Shown here: one piece after another, positions 1 to 7,278 of the stretch
How positions within the stretch are numbered: position 1 is the stretch's first letter
Layout of the letters: each line of letters begins with the position of its first letter
Source of the DNA: Pseudoduganella albidiflava
GTDB taxonomy: Bacteria > Pseudomonadota > Gammaproteobacteria > Burkholderiales > Burkholderiaceae_D
Direction of reading: 5' to 3'
DNA length: 64,000 bases
Assembly (NCBI RefSeq): GCF_004322755.1
Contig: NZ_CP036401.1
Span: 1,302,001 to 1,366,000 of the forward strand
Program-made: the position numbers and the translations under genes
The notes under the pieces: model-generated
What the model saw: only the letters and a program-made list of their open reading frames with translations
Databases searched by the model: none
Told to the model about the DNA's origin: nothing

Positions 1-1059
1 CTGGTCATGCGCGCCATCGCCAACGGCAAGCACGTGGTCACCGCCAACAAGGCGCTGCTGGCCGTGCACGGCAACGAAATCTTCAAGGCGGCCCAGGAAA
101 AGGGCGTGATGGTGGCGTTCGAGGCGGCCGTCGCCGGCGGCATCCCCATCATCAAGGCGCTGCGCGAAGGCTTGACGGCCAACCGCGTGCAATGGCTGGC
201 CGGCATCATCAACGGCACCACGAACTTCATCCTGTCCGAGATGCGCGACAAGGGCCTGGACTTCGACACGGTGTTGAAGGAAGCGCAGGCGCTGGGCTAC
301 GCCGAAGCGGATCCCACCTTCGACATCGAAGGCGTGGACGCGGCGCACAAGGCTACCATCCTGTCGGCGATCGCGTTCGGCATCCCGGTGCAGTTCGCCA
401 AGGCGCACGTGGAAGGCATCACCAAGCTGGAAGCCATCGACATCCGCTACGCCGAGGAGCTGGGCTACCGCATCAAGCTGCTGGGCATCGCCAAGCGCAC
501 CCGCGTCGACGGGGCGGACGGCATCGAACTGCGCGTGCACCCCACGCTGATCCCGGCCAAGCGCCTGATCGCCAACGTGGAAGGCGCGATGAACGCCGTG
601 CTGGTGCAGGGCGACGCGATCGGCGCCACGCTGTACTACGGCAAGGGCGCCGGCGCCGAGCCGACCGCGTCGGCCGTGATCGCCGACCTGGTCGACATCA
701 CCCGCCTGGCCACCGCCGACCCGGAACACCGCGTGCCGCACCTGGCCTTCCAGCCGGACGAACTGGCCGATATCGCCATCCTGCCGATGGCCGAGATCAC
801 CACCAGCTACTACCTGCGCATGCGCGTGGCCGACCAGCCGGGCGTGCTGGCCGACCTGACCCGCATCCTGGCCGACAGCGGCATCTCGATCGACGCGATG
901 ATGCAGAAGGAGCCGGGTGAAGGCGAAGTCCAGGCCGACATCATCATGCTGACGCACCAGACGCAGGAAAAGAAAGTCCTGGCCGCCATCGCCCGCATGG
1001 AAGGCTTGCCGACCGTGCTGGGCAGCGTGACCAAGATCCGCCTCGAGAACCTGGCCTGA
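1..1059 (+). CDS. hom: Homoserine dehydrogenase, 5' end cut by the window edge
   Basis: The NAD(P)-dependent enzyme reduces aspartate semialdehyde to homoserine on the route to threonine, methionine and isoleucine. The reading frame is open from base 1, so roughly the first 80 residues (most of the nucleotide-binding fold) lie outside the window; family members are usually near 435 residues and 352 are present here. Visible are the catalytic-domain segment with AGGIPIIKALREG and GIINGTTNFI, the ADPTFDIEGVDAAHK stretch, and a C-terminal ACT regulatory domain beginning near YYLRMRVADQPGVLADL, which in this family mediates threonine feedback control. A good intrinsic terminator follows at once, so it probably ends its transcription unit. 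Confidence 0.95.
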   Translation: MVMRAIANGKHVVTANKALLAVHGNEIFKAAQEKGVMVAFEAAVAGGIPIIKALREGLTANRVQWLAGIINGTTNFILSEMRDKGLDFDTVLKEAQALGYAEADPTFDIEGVDAAHKATILSAIAFGIPVQFAKAHVEGITKLEAIDIRYAEELGYRIKLLGIAKRTRVDGADGIELRVHPTLIPAKRLIANVEGAMNAVLVQGDAIGATLYYGKGAGAEPTASAVIADLVDITRLATADPEHRVPHLAFQPDELADIAILPMAEITTSYYLRMRVADQPGVLADLTRILADSGISIDAMMQKEPGEGEVQADIIMLTHQTQEKKVLAAIARMEGLPTVLGSVTKIRLENLA

Positions 1060-1080
1060 TCCGGCTTCTCTTCCAGTAAA

Positions 1081-1106
1081 AAACGGCCTGCGGGCCGTTT
1101 TTTTTT
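1081..1106 (+). terminator. Intrinsic terminator after hom
   Basis: A perfect 8-bp stem AAACGGCC / GGCCGTTT with a 4-nt loop is followed by a run of T, 22 nt after the hom stop codon. This is the classic Rho-independent shape. Confidence 0.88.
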
Positions 1107-1122
1107 ACTCTTGCCTTGGCGG

Positions 1123-1167
1123 AACATTTCCAAAAATCGGGGTCTGACCCCGGTTTTTGGAAATGTT
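1123..1167. repeat. Long intergenic inverted repeat with GGGGTCTGACCCC core
   Basis: Left arm AACATTTCCAAAAA pairs with right arm TTTTTGGAAATGTT, flanking an inner palindrome CGGGGTCTGACCCCG. The core recurs in diverged form at 23550-23576, 31270-31286 and 37363-37389, so this belongs to a dispersed family of palindromic intergenic elements. Its role is unknown; it is not needed as the hom terminator, which is upstream of it. Confidence 0.7.
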
Positions 1168-1319
1168 TGGTAGAGGCAAAAAAAAGCGGGCGACACTTGC
1201 GTGCGCCCGCTGGAAGGGGAGGTACTTCTGCTACTCTCAGATGCTACTTACTACCGGTACTACTACTCCATACAAGCCCCTGCTCCGGGGCCGAAAAATC
1301 GGTGATGCTCTCCTGGTGA

Positions 1320-1637
1320 TTACTTGGATGCGACGGTCAGTTCGCTCTTCACTTCCTTGACGCCTTCGACGGCCGAAGCAGCCTGGATGGCCTTGGTGCC
1401 TTCGTCGGTGCTCGGCACGGAGCCGGTCAGCGTCACTACGCCCTGGTTGGCGGAAACACCGATCTGTTTCTGGTCAGCCAGCGCAGCCTTGACTTTCGAG
1501 GTCAGCGCAGAGTCGCCGGCAGCAGCGGCGGCTCCTGCCATGGCGGCATCCTGTTGCGGCTCGGCGGCAAAGGCGGCGGAACCGAAAGACAGGGAAGCGG
1601 CAGCCAGCAGGGAGGCGATCAGTTTGGTGTTCGTCAT
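1320..1637 (-). CDS. Secreted BON-domain protein (OsmY/DolP-like), candidate GlrR target
   Basis: A 105-residue protein with an N-terminal signal peptide (MTNTKLIASLLAAASLSFG, likely cleaved after SAAFA) and one BON domain over about residues 45-105 with the typical GVVTLTGSV and VEGVKEVKSEL segments. BON domains bind phospholipid surfaces, and the periplasmic OsmY/DolP proteins help the envelope resist stress. I chose the ATG at 1637 because GGAGATTCATACC places a ribosome site just before it; an ATG 15 nt upstream lies on top of that site. The gene has its own sigma-54-type control region (1692-1819) and lies just downstream of glrR on the same strand. A lone BON domain with signal peptide is common in this bacterial group. 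Confidence 0.9.
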   Translation of the reverse strand: MTNTKLIASLLAAASLSFGSAAFAAEPQQDAAMAGAAAAAGDSALTSKVKAALADQKQIGVSANQGVVTLTGSVPSTDEGTKAIQAASAVEGVKEVKSELTVASK

Positions 1638-1691
1638 GGTATGAATCTCCATCGTAGTTTAAGGAACGCCGTGTGACGTTGCGCTACTACT

Positions 1692-1707
1692 TGCAAGCGC
1701 CGTGCCA
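1692..1707 (-). promoter_or_regulatory. Sigma-54 (-24/-12) promoter of the BON gene
   Basis: Read on the minus strand the bases are TGGCACGGCGCTTGCA, an exact match to the RpoN consensus TGGCACG-N4-TTGCW, with a C before it as the extended consensus prefers. Transcription should start near 1681, leaving a leader of about 45 nt before the ATG at 1637. The adjacent gene, glrR, encodes a sigma-54 activator. Confidence 0.85.
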
Positions 1708-1726
1708 GCTCAAAAAAATCGAGCAG

Positions 1727-1739
1727 AATCAAGGGCTTG
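1727..1739 (+). promoter_or_regulatory. IHF-type site between activator site and sigma-54 promoter
   Basis: AATCAAGGGCTTG matches the IHF consensus WATCAANNNNTTR at every fixed position. It lies between the TGTC-N10-GACA site and the -24/-12 promoter, where an IHF-induced bend would bring the activator to the polymerase. IHF motifs are degenerate, so binding is inference. Confidence 0.55.
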
Positions 1740-1801
1740 GAGATTCAGGCAAGGTTATCTTGCCGACAAGAATTACAATTCGAGACAATTCGGGGCCGTT
1801 T

Positions 1802-1819
1802 TGTCGTGAAACGGCGACA
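1802..1819. promoter_or_regulatory. Candidate GlrR upstream activating site TGTC-N10-GACA
   Basis: TGTC, ten bases, then GACA: the dyad reported for GlrR upstream of glmY and rpoE in Enterobacteriaceae. It lies about 95 bp upstream of the -24 element, a normal enhancer distance for sigma-54 activators. Further GACA half-sites occur at 1765 and 1784 without a matching TGTC partner. Confidence 0.6.
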
Positions 1820-1861
1820 GGGCCCCGGTACAGCTAAGCCAACTATTTGATTCTTATGGGA

Positions 1862-3240
<1,379 letters not shown>

Positions 3241-3241
<1 letters not shown>

Positions 3242-3873
3242 CAGCGTGCTCCCGGTGTCGAGGCGCCGTTCGCGCCGTTGGCCGGGCGTACCGGCAAGCC
3301 CCGCTCGATTGCCTTCAACGCCTCGACCGTGTCGCTCAGCTGCTCGGTCTTGCGGGTGGTTTCCTTCAGCTGGGTGGACAGGCGGTCGGCCTGGTCGTAC
3401 AGCCGGCGCGCTTCCGCGCAGTGGCTCGACAGCAGTTGCGCGAACGCGCGCACCCCCTGCGTGCCGGATTCGTTCGACGCCGCCACGCCATCGAACAATC
3501 CCTGGGCGCGCGCCAGGTCGCCGCCGCCCCGCGTCAGCATCAGGATCATGCCGGTCTGCAGCGTCACCTTCGGCGTGCGCTGCTGCTGCAGCAGCCCGGA
3601 CAGCTCCTTCAGCAACTCGCCCTGGGTCATCTTGCGCAGCGACTGGTGGTACACCAGCAGCGGCATCACCTCGTCGGGCAGCGCCACCGGTTCCACCTTG
3701 ATCGGCAGCGGCGCCACGGCCAGCGGGGCGCCGTAGTGCGTCTGCGTCAGCACGCCGTGCTGCGTGCCGCAGGCCGACAGCAGCAGTACCAGGGACAACA
3801 GGGACAGCAGCGGCAGCAGCCGCGATGGCGGCAACGGCGCCGCCGCGCGAAATGGACTTGGATCAGTTTTCAT
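3241..3873 (-). CDS. qseG: QseG-like outer-membrane lipoprotein of the GlrK/GlrR system
   Basis: A 210-residue protein with a hydrophobic N-terminal signal ending in lipobox LLSAC (Cys35). The mature part carries a predicted helical segment near residues 160-200 (LKETTRKTEQLSDTVEALKAIE) and a low-complexity tail. Sequence similarity to enterobacterial QseG is not obvious by eye; the call rests on its place between the sensor kinase and the sigma-54 regulator, its size and its lipobox. QseG in E. coli helps control GlrK. It overlaps the kinase gene by 11 nt and the regulator gene by 1 nt. Confidence 0.75.
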
Positions 3874-5290
3874 AAGGCAGTTCGAGACGGAAGTGGGCCC
3901 CGGGCGAGGAGGGCAGGAGTTGCAGGGTGCCGCCGTGCGCGATCACGTATTCGCGCACGATCGACAGGCCGATGCCATTGCCGCGCCGTGCGCCCGGCGG
4001 CTGGCGTTCGCCCTGGTAGAAGGGTTCGAACACGCGCTGCCGGTCGGCCGGCGCCACGCCCGGGCCCTGGTCGATGCAGTCCAGCCGCAGCATGCCGTTT
4101 TCCCGGGCCACGATGAAGCGCACCGTGCCGCCTTCCGGCGAGAACCGCACGGCGTTCGACAGCAGGTTGCTGGCCACGATCACCAGCTTGGCGGCATCCA
4201 CCGCGATATCCGGTGCGCCGCCCTCGACCATCACGAGCAGGCTGCGCGCCTGCCATTGCAGGCACTGGCTGTCGACCACCCGGCGCACCAGCGCCGCCAT
4301 GTCGACCGGCTCGCGCAGCAGGTGCTGGGCGTCGAAACTGGCGGCATTGTAACGCAGCAAGTCCTCGATCTGGTTTTGCAGCGATGCCGTATTCTGCCGC
4401 AGGATGTGGGTGATTTCACGCTGTTTCGGCGCCAGCGGACCGGCCACTTCATCTTCCAGCAGGGCCACGCCCTCGACCATCGCCGCCAGCGGCGTCTTCA
4501 GTTCGTGCGAGATATGGCGCAGGAAGCGTGCCTTGTCCGCTTCCAGGTCGGCCAGCCGCTGGCGCAGCCAGTCGAGGTGGCGGCCCATGCGGCGCAGGTC
4601 GTCCGGGCCGGCCACGTCGATCGGCGTGTCATAGCGGTTGCCGCCCAGCTGCCCGATCGCGCTTTCGATCTGCCGCAGCGGGCGCGCCAGCCACAGGCCG
4701 AACGCGATGGACAGCACGGCGGCCAGCGCGATCGACAGTGCCAGCTGGCCGCGCAGCACGTTGCGGCGGGTCTCCAGTTCTTCGGTGATCGCGGCATTGC
4801 GGCGGTCCACCTCGGCCTGGGCCAGGTGCGCCAGTTCGCTGTTGATCGCCGGCAGTTGCGCCAGCGCGGCATCGAGCCGCAATTGCGCCGCGCCGCGGTG
4901 GGTGGTCGGCATGCCCAGCGCGGCGCGCGCCGCCTCGCCATTGCGGCGCCAGTCGGCGAACGCGGACGGCGCTTCACCGGGCAGCTCGGCGGCGATCGCA
5001 TCGAGCGCCGCCAGCGCATCGCGCCAGGCTTCGCGGAACCGGTCGAGGAAGGCCACATCGTCCAGCACCAGGTACTGGCGCGCGCTGCGTTCCATCGCCA
5101 CGCTGCGTTCGGCCACGCGCTGCGCATTGGCTGTCAGGGCGATGGCGTCGTTGCCTGTTTCGCGGCTATGCTCGGCAAGCTGGTTCAGGGTCAGCAGCGC
5201 GAGCACCGACGTGGCGCTCAGCAGCGCCGCAATCAGCAGGAAGGCGATCAGCGACAGCAGTCGGAACGATAGCTTTGGCAAGGGCGGCAC
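3863..5290 (-). CDS. glrK: Sensor histidine kinase GlrK (QseE)
   Basis: A 475-residue membrane kinase. Transmembrane segments lie near residues 10-32 and 183-202 with a helical periplasmic region between them. A HAMP segment follows (about 203-255), then HisKA with the H-box FLRHISHELKTPLAAM (phospho-accepting His262) and an ATPase domain with N-box ASNLLSNAVRF, G1 DQGPGV and G2 GNGIGLS. It should phosphorylate GlrR. The start at 5290 is GTG with no convincing ribosome site; no better Met is near, so the start is uncertain. The gene is divergent from the aryl-polyene operon across a 450-nt gap. Confidence 0.92.
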   Translation of the reverse strand: MPPLPKLSFRLLSLIAFLLIAALLSATSVLALLTLNQLAEHSRETGNDAIALTANAQRVAERSVAMERSARQYLVLDDVAFLDRFREAWRDALAALDAIAAELPGEAPSAFADWRRNGEAARAALGMPTTHRGAAQLRLDAALAQLPAINSELAHLAQAEVDRRNAAITEELETRRNVLRGQLALSIALAAVLSIAFGLWLARPLRQIESAIGQLGGNRYDTPIDVAGPDDLRRMGRHLDWLRQRLADLEADKARFLRHISHELKTPLAAMVEGVALLEDEVAGPLAPKQREITHILRQNTASLQNQIEDLLRYNAASFDAQHLLREPVDMAALVRRVVDSQCLQWQARSLLVMVEGGAPDIAVDAAKLVIVASNLLSNAVRFSPEGGTVRFIVARENGMLRLDCIDQGPGVAPADRQRVFEPFYQGERQPPGARRGNGIGLSIVREYVIAHGGTLQLLPSSPGAHFRLELPYEN

Positions 5291-5741
5291 TCGCGGAGAA
5301 TGTTAACCAAGTAATAATAGTTGAATTCACTGCCGAGCTGTTGCTTTATTGCTCAGGTGACAGTGTTTGCAATTCCGCCGAGCAATTATAACCAGCTCTT
5401 CCGATATTAATAATCTGGCATGGTTGCAAGGCGCGGGGGCGAATCATAGCGTGACAATTGGTGAGAATCCACGCGAATCCACGCATTTACGGCCCGTTGT
5501 TACAAAAAAAGGCAGGGTTGGTGACAATTCGCTGACTTTTAAGTGCCCGGGCATTGTTAAACTCCCGCTTCTCTGGTTCATCCAAGCAACAGTCCGGTGC
5601 GGATGACCCAAACGCAACGCTCAACGGCCGATAGTTTTGTTATTTGCTGCAGGGCTCGCTTATAATTTCCGCTTAACTCCTGCCACAGAATAACTCGCAG
5701 TGGCGCACGAAAGAGTTTCACCACCGCGACGGGGATAGTCA
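5291..5741. other. Divergent intergenic region between glrK and the aryl-polyene operon
   Basis: This 451-nt gap is more A/T-rich than its flanks and holds the promoters for both directions. A sigma-70-type promoter facing the polyene operon is at 5637-5666. GTGACAATT occurs twice, at 5451 and 5521, exactly 70 bp apart, with a third GTGACA at 5357. I find no TGTC-N10-GACA dyad and no -24/-12 promoter here. A 79-codon frame inside it shows no gene-like features. Confidence 0.6.
5637..5666 (+). promoter_or_regulatory. Sigma-70-type promoter of the aryl-polyene operon
   Basis: TTGTTA and a perfect TATAAT are separated by 18 nt, about 75 nt upstream of the first cluster gene. This is the best housekeeping promoter in the gap and could drive the whole 18-kb operon. 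Confidence 0.6.
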
Positions 5742-6485
5742 ATGTACAGGGCAGGGGTCAGTTTTTCCATTCTCGGGCATGCCGCCTGGGCGCCTGGCCT
5801 GGCCGCAGCGGAAGAATGGGTAGCCTGGGCCGCGGCGCCTGCGCCGGCACCGATCGCCCATGCGGGCGAGCCGGGCGTGCGCGCCATGCCGCCGATGTTG
5901 CGGCGCCGCCTTGGCCAGCTGGGCAAGATGGCGCTCGATGTCGCCTACACGGCGCTGGGCGAGCGTACCGGCGTTCCCACCGTGTTCTGTTCGCGCCACG
6001 GCGAAACGGCGCGGGCGATCGCATTGCTGGATGACCTGGCGCGCGGCGTGCCGCTGTCGCCGACGGCGTTCGGCATGTCGGTCCACAATGCCAATGCCGG
6101 CCTGTTTTCGATCGCGCGGAGCGACCAGGCCAACCACATCGCGCTCGCGGCCGGCAGCGGCACGCTGGAGCACGCGGTGATCGAGGCTTGCGGCCTGCTG
6201 GCCGATGGCGAACCGGCGGTGCTGCTGGTGGCCGCCGATTGCCCGCTGCCCGAGGCGTTCGCGCCGTTCGCCGACCGCGCCGAACAGCCGCATGCCTTCG
6301 CATGGCTGATGGCGGCCGATGGCGGCACGGAGCGCCTGTCGCTGCAATGGGCCGCCAGCGATGCCGCGGAAGACCATGGCGGCCTGCCCGGCACGCTCGA
6401 CGTGCTGCGCTTCTACGCCGCCGGGGCGCCGCAGCTGGAGCGGGTCGCCGGCCGGCGGCGCTGGCGCTGGAGCCGCGGTGATTGA
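5742..6485 (+). CDS. Aryl-polyene chain-length factor (ketosynthase-like, no catalytic Cys)
   Basis: A 247-residue truncated thiolase-fold protein of the beta-ketoacyl-synthase chain-length-factor family. It carries FCSRHGETARAIALLDDL and the SVHNANAGLFSI / NHIALAAGSGTLEHAVIEA region where a true ketosynthase would have its nucleophile Cys; here there is none. In studied aryl-polyene systems the equivalent (ApeC) pairs with a ketosynthase (ApeO) and helps set polyene length. It is the first gene of the operon, about 75 nt after a TATAAT promoter; GGGGA precedes the ATG. It overlaps the next gene by 8 nt. Confidence 0.85.
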   Translation: MYRAGVSFSILGHAAWAPGLAAAEEWVAWAAAPAPAPIAHAGEPGVRAMPPMLRRRLGQLGKMALDVAYTALGERTGVPTVFCSRHGETARAIALLDDLARGVPLSPTAFGMSVHNANAGLFSIARSDQANHIALAAGSGTLEHAVIEACGLLADGEPAVLLVAADCPLPEAFAPFADRAEQPHAFAWLMAADGGTERLSLQWAASDAAEDHGGLPGTLDVLRFYAAGAPQLERVAGRRRWRWSRGD

Positions 6486-7278
6486 AGGCCTGGGGCGGGC
6501 CTGGCGCGTAGGCGCCACCGGCCTGTCCTTCGCATTGTTCGGCGTGGGCGGCCTGCTGCTGCGGCTGGTGGTATTCCCGCTGCTGTACCTGCTGGTCTGG
6601 CGGCGCGAGCGGCGCGTCACGGCGGCGCGCGCCATCATCCGCCTGGCATTCCGGGCCTACGTGGACGTGATGCGCGCGCTGGGCGTGCTGCGCTATGAAG
6701 TGCGCGGGCTGGAAAAGCTGGAGCGGCGCGGTCTGCTGATCCTGGCGAACCACCCGACACTGATCGACACGGTGTTCCTGATGGCGTTCGTGCGCAATGC
6801 GGATTGCATCGTCAAGGGCGCATTGTGGAACAACCCGTTTACACGGGGGCCGGTACGCGCCGCGGGCTACATCAGCAATGATGGTGGCCAGAGCGGCGGC
6901 ACCAGCGGCGGCGACGGCGATGGCCTGGTGAAGGCCTGCATCGCTTCGCTGGAGCGCGGCAACAACCTGATCGTGTTCCCGGAAGGGACGCGCACCCCTG
7001 CGAATGGCGTCATCAGCATGAAGCGGGGCGCCGCCAACGTGGCGGTGCGCGGCGCGCGCGCCATCACGCCGGTGGTGATCCGCTGCGATCCGCCCACGCT
7101 GGGCAAGGGCGAAAAATGGTGGCGGGTACCGCCGCGCCGCGTGCGCTTCTCGCTGGAAGTGCAGGACGACGTGGCGGTGGAACCCTTCATCCACGACAGC
7201 AGCGACGTAATGGCGGCGCGCCGGCTGACGGAATTTTTACAGAACTATTTTACGGGGAAGTACCAAGGCCATGCTTGA
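6478..7278 (+). CDS. Lysophospholipid-type acyltransferase (PlsC family) of the polyene cluster
   Basis: A 266-residue membrane-associated acyltransferase with hydrophobic N-terminus (LSFALFGVGGLLLRLVVFPL), the HX4D catalytic motif in LANHPTLIDT, and the acceptor motif FPEGTRTP. Such enzymes attach the finished polyene carboxylate to a lipid or glycerol backbone in aryl-polyene and flexirubin systems; the exact acceptor is not known here. I place the start at GTG 6478 (VIEGLGRAWRVG), which overlaps the preceding stop by 8 nt; the longer in-frame extension upstream is simply the shadow of the preceding gene. Confidence 0.85.
   Translation: MIEGLGRAWRVGATGLSFALFGVGGLLLRLVVFPLLYLLVWRRERRVTAARAIIRLAFRAYVDVMRALGVLRYEVRGLEKLERRGLLILANHPTLIDTVFLMAFVRNADCIVKGALWNNPFTRGPVRAAGYISNDGGQSGGTSGGDGDGLVKACIASLERGNNLIVFPEGTRTPANGVISMKRGAANVAVRGARAITPVVIRCDPPTLGKGEKWWRVPPRRVRFSLEVQDDVAVEPFIHDSSDVMAARRLTEFLQNYFTGKYQGHA

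Follow-up and report, generated by a model that had tools for sequence, protein, structure and literature searches.

A sigma-54 control region after glrR points to a BON-domain protein gene as a probable GlrR target in Pseudoduganella albidiflava and its relatives

The GlrKR (QseEF) system has so far been studied in enterobacteria through GlmY, rpoE and virulence, and the question raised by the present locus is which gene such a system might control in a betaproteobacterium. In earlier work, QseF and IHF bind three UASs (TGT-N12-ACA) and activate the sigma-54 promoter of glmY beside qseEGF (PMC6075780), the UAS consensus of glmY-type sites is given as TGTCN10GACA and glmY is described as co-transcribed with the qseEGF operon in Proteus (PMC8745638), QseF and sigma-54 activate rpoE in E. 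coli (PMC6075780), and QseG activates QseE (PMC6075780, PMC12691602). Other work places qseEGF in Betaproteobacteria (PMC12691602, PMC8895600), and a sigma-54 survey treats QseF-like activators as a class and ties sigma-54 to the bacterial exterior (PMC3162934). The regulator, the promoter type and the presence of qseEGF in Betaproteobacteria are already known, and no GlrKR/QseEF output for Betaproteobacteria was found described in the open literature searched.

The window, by which we mean the whole 64-kb stretch of DNA analysed, comes from a genome of 7.44 Mb in a single contig. Its minus strand carries, in the order of transcription, a glrK-like, a qseG-like and a glrR-like gene followed by a BON gene. 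The glrK (qseE)-like gene (3863..5290, minus strand) encodes a sensor kinase of 475 aa with the Pfam domains HAMP, HisKA and HATPase_c, which matches the kinase of an enterobacterium (L022) at ~33%. The qseG-like gene (3241..3873, minus strand) encodes a putative lipoprotein of 210 aa with a lipobox, LLLSAC, recognized by eye; the protein has no match in Pfam or NCBIfam, matches the protein encoded upstream of glrR in Duganella at 64%, and has a weak match to the enterobacterial QseG protein (36% over 59 aa, E 0.004). The third gene (1862..3241, minus strand) encodes a sigma-54 response regulator of 459 aa (Pfam Response_reg and Sigma54_activat), in which a receiver, a sigma-54 AAA+ domain and an HTH with the recognition helix NRTEFY are all present according to Pfam and alignment. 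This helix, in the longer form NRTEFY[RK]LL, is that of the enterobacterial GlrR (L022), and NRTEFY was found in 141 of the 152 GlrR loci collected in this work. The best NCBIfam match of the regulator is GlrR, at the top of 109 families, with 603.8 bits, which falls short of the curated cut-off of that equivalog (763 bits); we therefore call it GlrR-like on the basis of the best match, the helix and the gene order, and not of the cut-off. The GlrR proteins of the nearest named relatives match it at 86% (Duganella) and 77% (Janthinobacterium). The order glrK-qseG-glrR is present in the window by open reading frames, Pfam and protein comparison, and the host genome has one rpoN gene.

The BON gene lies on the same strand as glrR, 224 bp downstream. 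It is listed as an open reading frame of 110 aa (1320..1652, minus strand), but its start is more likely the ATG at 1637 (105 aa), which has a GGAG ahead of it by eye. The protein has one BON domain (Pfam PF04972, 61.2 bits against a gathering cut-off of 27) and, by eye, a Sec-type signal peptide, so it looks secreted. Its best NCBIfam match is OsmY, with 47.4 bits, far under the cut-off of 174, and it is not assigned to that family. Like the window protein, OsmY and DolP of E. coli are envelope proteins with BON domains; they carry two such domains each, in contrast to one here, and are regulated by RpoS and sigma-E. By analogy with them, a chaperone or lipid-binding role may be considered for the window protein. 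The BON transcript probably ends at an intrinsic terminator at 1178..1211 on the minus strand, where the fold of 1150-1330 has a GC stem followed by 8 U; the z-score of that whole folded stretch is only -1.33, and the hairpin was not picked up by a consensus terminator scan. The distance from the BON stop to this terminator (1319-1212, minus strand) would give a 3' UTR of ~110 bases, which is long for a small mRNA. An Rfam search of positions 1-7000 returned a single match, to a microRNA family, with a score that falls well short of the gathering threshold.

What could drive this gene is suggested by the DNA that separates it from glrR, where the coding strand reads, in order, UAS1, IHF-like site a, UAS2, IHF-like site b and a -24/-12 promoter. 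UAS1, the distal GlrR-type site (TGTCGCTGAAGAGCGACA, 1869..1886, minus strand), matches TGTC-N10-GACA exactly within the last codons of glrR, and IHF-like site a (AATCAAATAGTTG, 1840..1852, minus strand) follows 16 bp after it. UAS2, the proximal GlrR-type site (TGTCGCCGTTTCACGACA, 1802..1819, minus strand; TGTCGTGAAACGGCGACA on the plus strand), is likewise an exact match and starts 67 bp from the start of UAS1. IHF-like site b (AATCAA-N4-TTG; AATCAAGGGCTTG, 1727..1739, plus strand) stands 32 bp upstream of the -24 element of the sigma-54 promoter (TGGCACGGCGCTTGCA, 1692..1707, minus strand), which has the exact consensus, a predicted transcription start at ~1681, and a distance of 94 bp from UAS2 that is in phase with the relatives. 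The window has, in order, the UASs of the form TGTC-N10-GACA, the IHF site and the -24/-12 promoter of the glmY-type arrangement. The sequence-only reading had described a control region of three elements here, and all three hold, the promoter and the proximal UAS as exact matches and the IHF-consensus site by eye and by script, but its picture was incomplete, as the second UAS and the second IHF-like site had been missed.

We consider it highly probable that the BON gene is switched on by GlrR acting together with sigma-54 and IHF, with GlrK and QseG in the sensing role. A disturbance of the envelope would act through the lipoprotein QseG on the sensor GlrK and lead to phosphorylation of GlrR; GlrR-P would then occupy UAS1 and UAS2, directly downstream of and partly inside glrR, while IHF would bend the DNA at two places and let GlrR contact sigma-54 RNA polymerase at -24/-12, and the polymerase would produce a short mRNA for a secreted protein with a single BON domain. 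Binding, activation, the envelope signal and a protective role of the BON protein are steps that we infer. That the BON gene is a target of GlrR had been proposed before, and the proposal is supported, as far as sequences can support it, by conservation, helical phase, IHF offsets and the NRTEFY[RK]LL helix.

Within the host genome the arrangement is rare. The promoter is the sole match to TGGCACG-N4-TTGCA with at most one mismatch in the window, and among the 10 exact -24/-12 elements of the genome only this one has an exact UAS at 36-127 bp. An exact UAS followed at 36-127 bp by TGGCAY-N6-TGC occurs at one place in the genome, the window locus, and the same is true of a tandem UAS pair. The backwards control gave two UAS-promoter hits at 36-65 bp, none at 66-96 or 97-127 bp, and one hit for the tandem pair; because this control also hits the genome, the count alone is no proof, and the weight rests on conservation in relatives. 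TGTC-N10-GACA by itself occurs six times in the window against 0.79 expected, and a genome scan for single UASs was dropped as evidence, as the true pattern gave 119 sites and its backwards version 85.

The sequence-only reading had staked its proposal on conservation of the motifs in relatives, and they are conserved. Among 116 genomes of the family, GlrR (called at E <= 1e-150) is present in 20, and the BON gene follows glrR in all 20. Both UASs are exact, at the glrR locus and once per genome in 15 of these 20 genomes; the UASs of the remaining five, all from genus g24, are degenerate. When a chain was defined as UAS, UAS and promoter in order, with at most one mismatch in each UAS, at most two in the promoter and UAS starts 55-95 bp apart, it was kept in 17 of the 20, with degenerate elements only in the other three (L096, L097 and L100). 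The tandem UAS pair occurs in 3 of the 96 family genomes that lack GlrR, and the backwards control in 2 of 116. At E <= 1e-12, the BON protein was recovered in 12 of the 116 genomes, all of them GlrR-bearing and always at the GlrR locus, and no close BON relative independent of GlrR was found among the 116 at this threshold, at which the BON protein of 8 of the 20 GlrR-bearing genomes is too divergent to be recovered and an equally divergent BON protein elsewhere would be missed as well.

These counts bear on whether the promoter might be real but served by another NtrC-family protein, with the true targets of GlrR elsewhere. The genome probably encodes more sigma-54 activators (184 first-look GlrR candidates, 14 scored), and its 10 exact -24/-12 elements would leave room for them; against this, the UAS has the form known for enterobacterial GlrR (TGTCN10GACA), 15 of the 20 GlrR-bearing family genomes have it at glrR, and it stays after glrR when the next gene changes, so that we regard another activator as quite improbable and retain GlrR. 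A UAS-plus-promoter was found in the 20 genomes at 17, 2 and 5 places for distances of 66-96, 36-65 and 97-127 bp, respectively, with 14, 1 and 1 of them at the glrR locus; off the locus there are 3, 1 and 4 places (8 in total) against 2, 2 and 4 in the backwards controls. The search for further GlrR targets off the locus thus yielded no more hits than the controls, so that no further target is proposed, and by the strict UAS-plus-promoter pattern the circuit is local. In one genome, a second exact UAS and promoter with a gap of 85 was seen (L258, G096:C13:62879-62996), where the nearest ORF, 242 bp downstream, resembles a Crp-type regulator by eye.

Conservation extends well beyond the family. 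GlrR (called at E <= 1e-140) was found in 118 of 300 genomes of the order, representing 61 of 140 genera. Together the family and order samples gave 143 loci from 136 genomes, which with nine named loci make 152, and about 900-960 bp after glrR were searched for the chain. It is present at 82 of the 152 loci and, for the two samples, in 75 of the 136 GlrR-bearing genomes, 42 of 65 genera and 22 of 37 families; the other 61 genomes are without it in the 960 bp searched. Among the 70 chain-less loci, some have one UAS and a promoter, some have the pair without a promoter, and two (L006 and L008) have the cassette upstream of glrK; in L175 and L184 the two UASs are separated by 96-97 bp, which is outside the chain limits, and a promoter follows 63 bp further on. 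Where no chain lies downstream, one upstream of glrK was clear within the thresholds only in L006 and L008 and weaker in L179, the 1.5-kb flanks of L119-L146 being too short for this check. The UAS pair and promoter of L006 and L008 (gaps 74 and 73) lie on the opposite strand to glrK, ahead of a bactofilin gene, for which the identification rests on Pfam in L006 and on similarity in L008.

The spacing of the elements is regular. In the searched range of 55-95 bp, the starts of the two UASs are separated by 63-70 or 77 bp, and the gaps between UAS2 and the promoter fall at 42, 52-54, 61-66, 73-76, 83-87, 93-96, 105-108 and 117-118 bp, that is, in clusters that step by ~10.5 bp, or one helical turn. 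With one locus per genus and gap, and the nine named loci left out here and in the IHF statistics, phasing at 10.5 bp is strong (R 0.73, n 43, Rayleigh p ~1.5e-10), as it is with one per family and gap (n 38, p ~2e-9), although these p values are optimistic because the genera are related. A second sample of 370 genomes of the class was picked by the UAS pair alone, which is present in 26 of them against 1 in the backwards control (the window's own). With the window set aside, a promoter lies at 20-140 bp in 16 of 25 loci, at gaps of 62-63, 73-76, 86 and 104, and these share the same phase within 0.4 bp (R 0.81-0.82, n 16, p ~2e-5; several of the 16 are same-genus pairs). The other nine have no promoter match at 20-140 bp, and one more locus matches at 177 bp. 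Outside the order, L013 (gap 96) and L016 (73) fit the phase, and the enterobacterial L022 (89) falls between clusters. Helical phasing, like the anatomy of the region, its conservation and its co-occurrence with GlrR, is an observed property of these genomes, and it suggests that the face which GlrR presents to the polymerase matters. The series of helical turns offers a natural experiment on the orientation towards sigma-54 polymerase that is required of IHF and of an activator bound to its enhancer.

It is hardly credible, given these data, that the tandem dyads arose by chance, or as palindromes imposed by coding, in GC-rich DNA. Such an origin could appeal to the 119 TGTC-N10-GACA sites against 85 backwards ones in the host genome, to the pair in 3 of 96 GlrR-less genomes and to five palindromic pairs in one genome, G645, but the chain appears in none of 760 shuffles and in none of the 251 other real stretches compared, and the phasing repeats out of sample. 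The five pairs of G645, which belongs to the class sample, look unrelated.

The IHF-like sites keep their places as well. In 53 intervals, one per genus and gap, the IHF consensus is exact between UAS1 and UAS2 in 16 and has at most one mismatch in 40 (shuffles, 0.2% and 5.9%), and between UAS2 and the promoter it is exact in 16 and within one mismatch in 35 (shuffles, 0.5% and 8.4%). Exact sites after UAS1 have an offset of 15-16 bp in 12 of 17 cases; those before the -24 element stand at -31 to -33 in 15 of 16, the exception being -21 in L085, which has the shortest gap. From these mostly fixed offsets and the phased gaps, it seems that the interval from UAS2 to the proximal IHF site is the part that changes in length, and that it does so by whole turns.

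In the window's family, UAS1 either sits within the end of glrR or straddles it. In 10 family loci it is wholly inside the gene, and in every one of these the CGA that it contains is read in frame as Arg, a codon used for 8 of the 366 Arg codons elsewhere in those glrR genes (18 of 376 in all). The GlrR tails of these genomes are similar (VAxERQ) and would thus seem to be a by-product of the enhancer. The BON gene might instead be the last gene of a glrK-qseG-glrR operon, expressed by read-through, with the motifs as leftovers; the common strand, the 224 bp after glrR and a scan that listed no terminator on that strand between glrR and BON would all suit this. Yet the elements are kept over many genera, with a spacing quantised by helical turns that would be lost in leftovers, and UAS1 keeps a rare codon in glrR. 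We find this explanation very improbable as the whole account, although read-through may add to BON expression, and we continue with activation of the BON gene by GlrR.

Does the same regulator always drive a BON gene? Within the family a BON gene comes after glrR in 20 of 20 genomes with GlrR, but other lineages appear to have other outputs. Labelled by similarity except where curated families were tested, the 82 chain loci are followed by a BON gene in 43 (8 of these with EF-hand motifs too), OpgH-like proteins in 9, OpgG-like proteins in 5, glycine-zipper-type proteins in 4, small membrane proteins in 4, an EF-hand protein without BON in 4 (L145 doubtful), a candidate small RNA in 4 and no named output in 9. 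Curated families were tested for OpgH in L139, OpgG in L007 and L141, the glycine zipper in L149 and EF-hand in L212, that is, for 1 of 9 OpgH, 2 of 5 OpgG, 1 of 4 glycine-zipper and 1 of 2 bactofilin labels; BON was tested in six loci counting the window, with L155 at 26.8 against the cut-off of 27. Most of the named outputs are envelope-related. The small protein common to L191 and L228 has no evident signal peptide, which argues against an output that is always envelope. In family f21, all five loci (L183, L201, L216, L222 and L224, the last but one with a weaker promoter and outside the 82) have no gene close after the cassette. A short transcript is suggested there 220-354 bp after glrR by its conserved 3' end, where GAGTGCGCCTTG precedes a GC hairpin and a run of 7 or more T; judged from these features it is likely a small RNA, and Rfam gave no match for it at E <= 1.

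On a quick GlrR tree of 45 rows, made without bootstraps and with 11 of 41 inner branches weak, the ten output classes cannot be explained by fewer than 13 changes, or 8 with BON/EF and OpgG/OpgH merged; ten chain loci whose output was not confidently named are absent from it (L134, L145, L150, L161, L163, L178, L186, L191, L200 and L228). We lean slightly towards the idea that the GlrR cassette is a portable output socket, tied to its regulator and rigid in helical phase, for which whichever gene lies behind it becomes the output. If so, the BON, EF-hand, OPG synthesis, glycine-zipper, bactofilin and small RNA genes would be alternatives for the same socket, with enterobacterial GlmY as a further plug of this kind and not as the ancestral output. 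Outputs swapped on one fixed switch would make a testable case of regulatory rewiring.

Set beside the glmY promoter of Enterobacteriaceae, the window shares UASs, IHF and a sigma-54 promoter beside glrK-qseG-glrR, but it has two UASs in place of three, and a BON protein encoded downstream of glrR is its probable output, from a promoter that does not feed the operon, in place of a small RNA upstream of it; in the enterobacterial L022 the glmY-type sites lie upstream of glrK. The rpoE promoter of E. coli (PMC6075780) resembles the window in sigma-54, QseF and envelope function, whereas its output is a sigma factor gene and not a secreted envelope protein beside the regulator. The passages of the sigma-54 survey that were examined (PMC3162934) do not name BON, OpgG or GlrR and describe neither the cassette nor any of its outputs. 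The open literature searched contained no paper joining QseF to the BON domain or to opgGH, and none joining BON domain-containing proteins to RpoN or GlrR to Betaproteobacteria. It also made no mention of BON as a target, of the wiring downstream of glrR or of outputs being exchanged. The BON gene is a concrete and conserved candidate target, and its envelope class hints at the purpose of the system. In the class sample, the cassette stands before small secreted proteins that look EF-hand-like by eye in six loci (L279, L280, L282, L284, L288 and L289), and in four others (L268, L270, L277 and L278) a larger protein follows it, taken by eye for a glucan enzyme.
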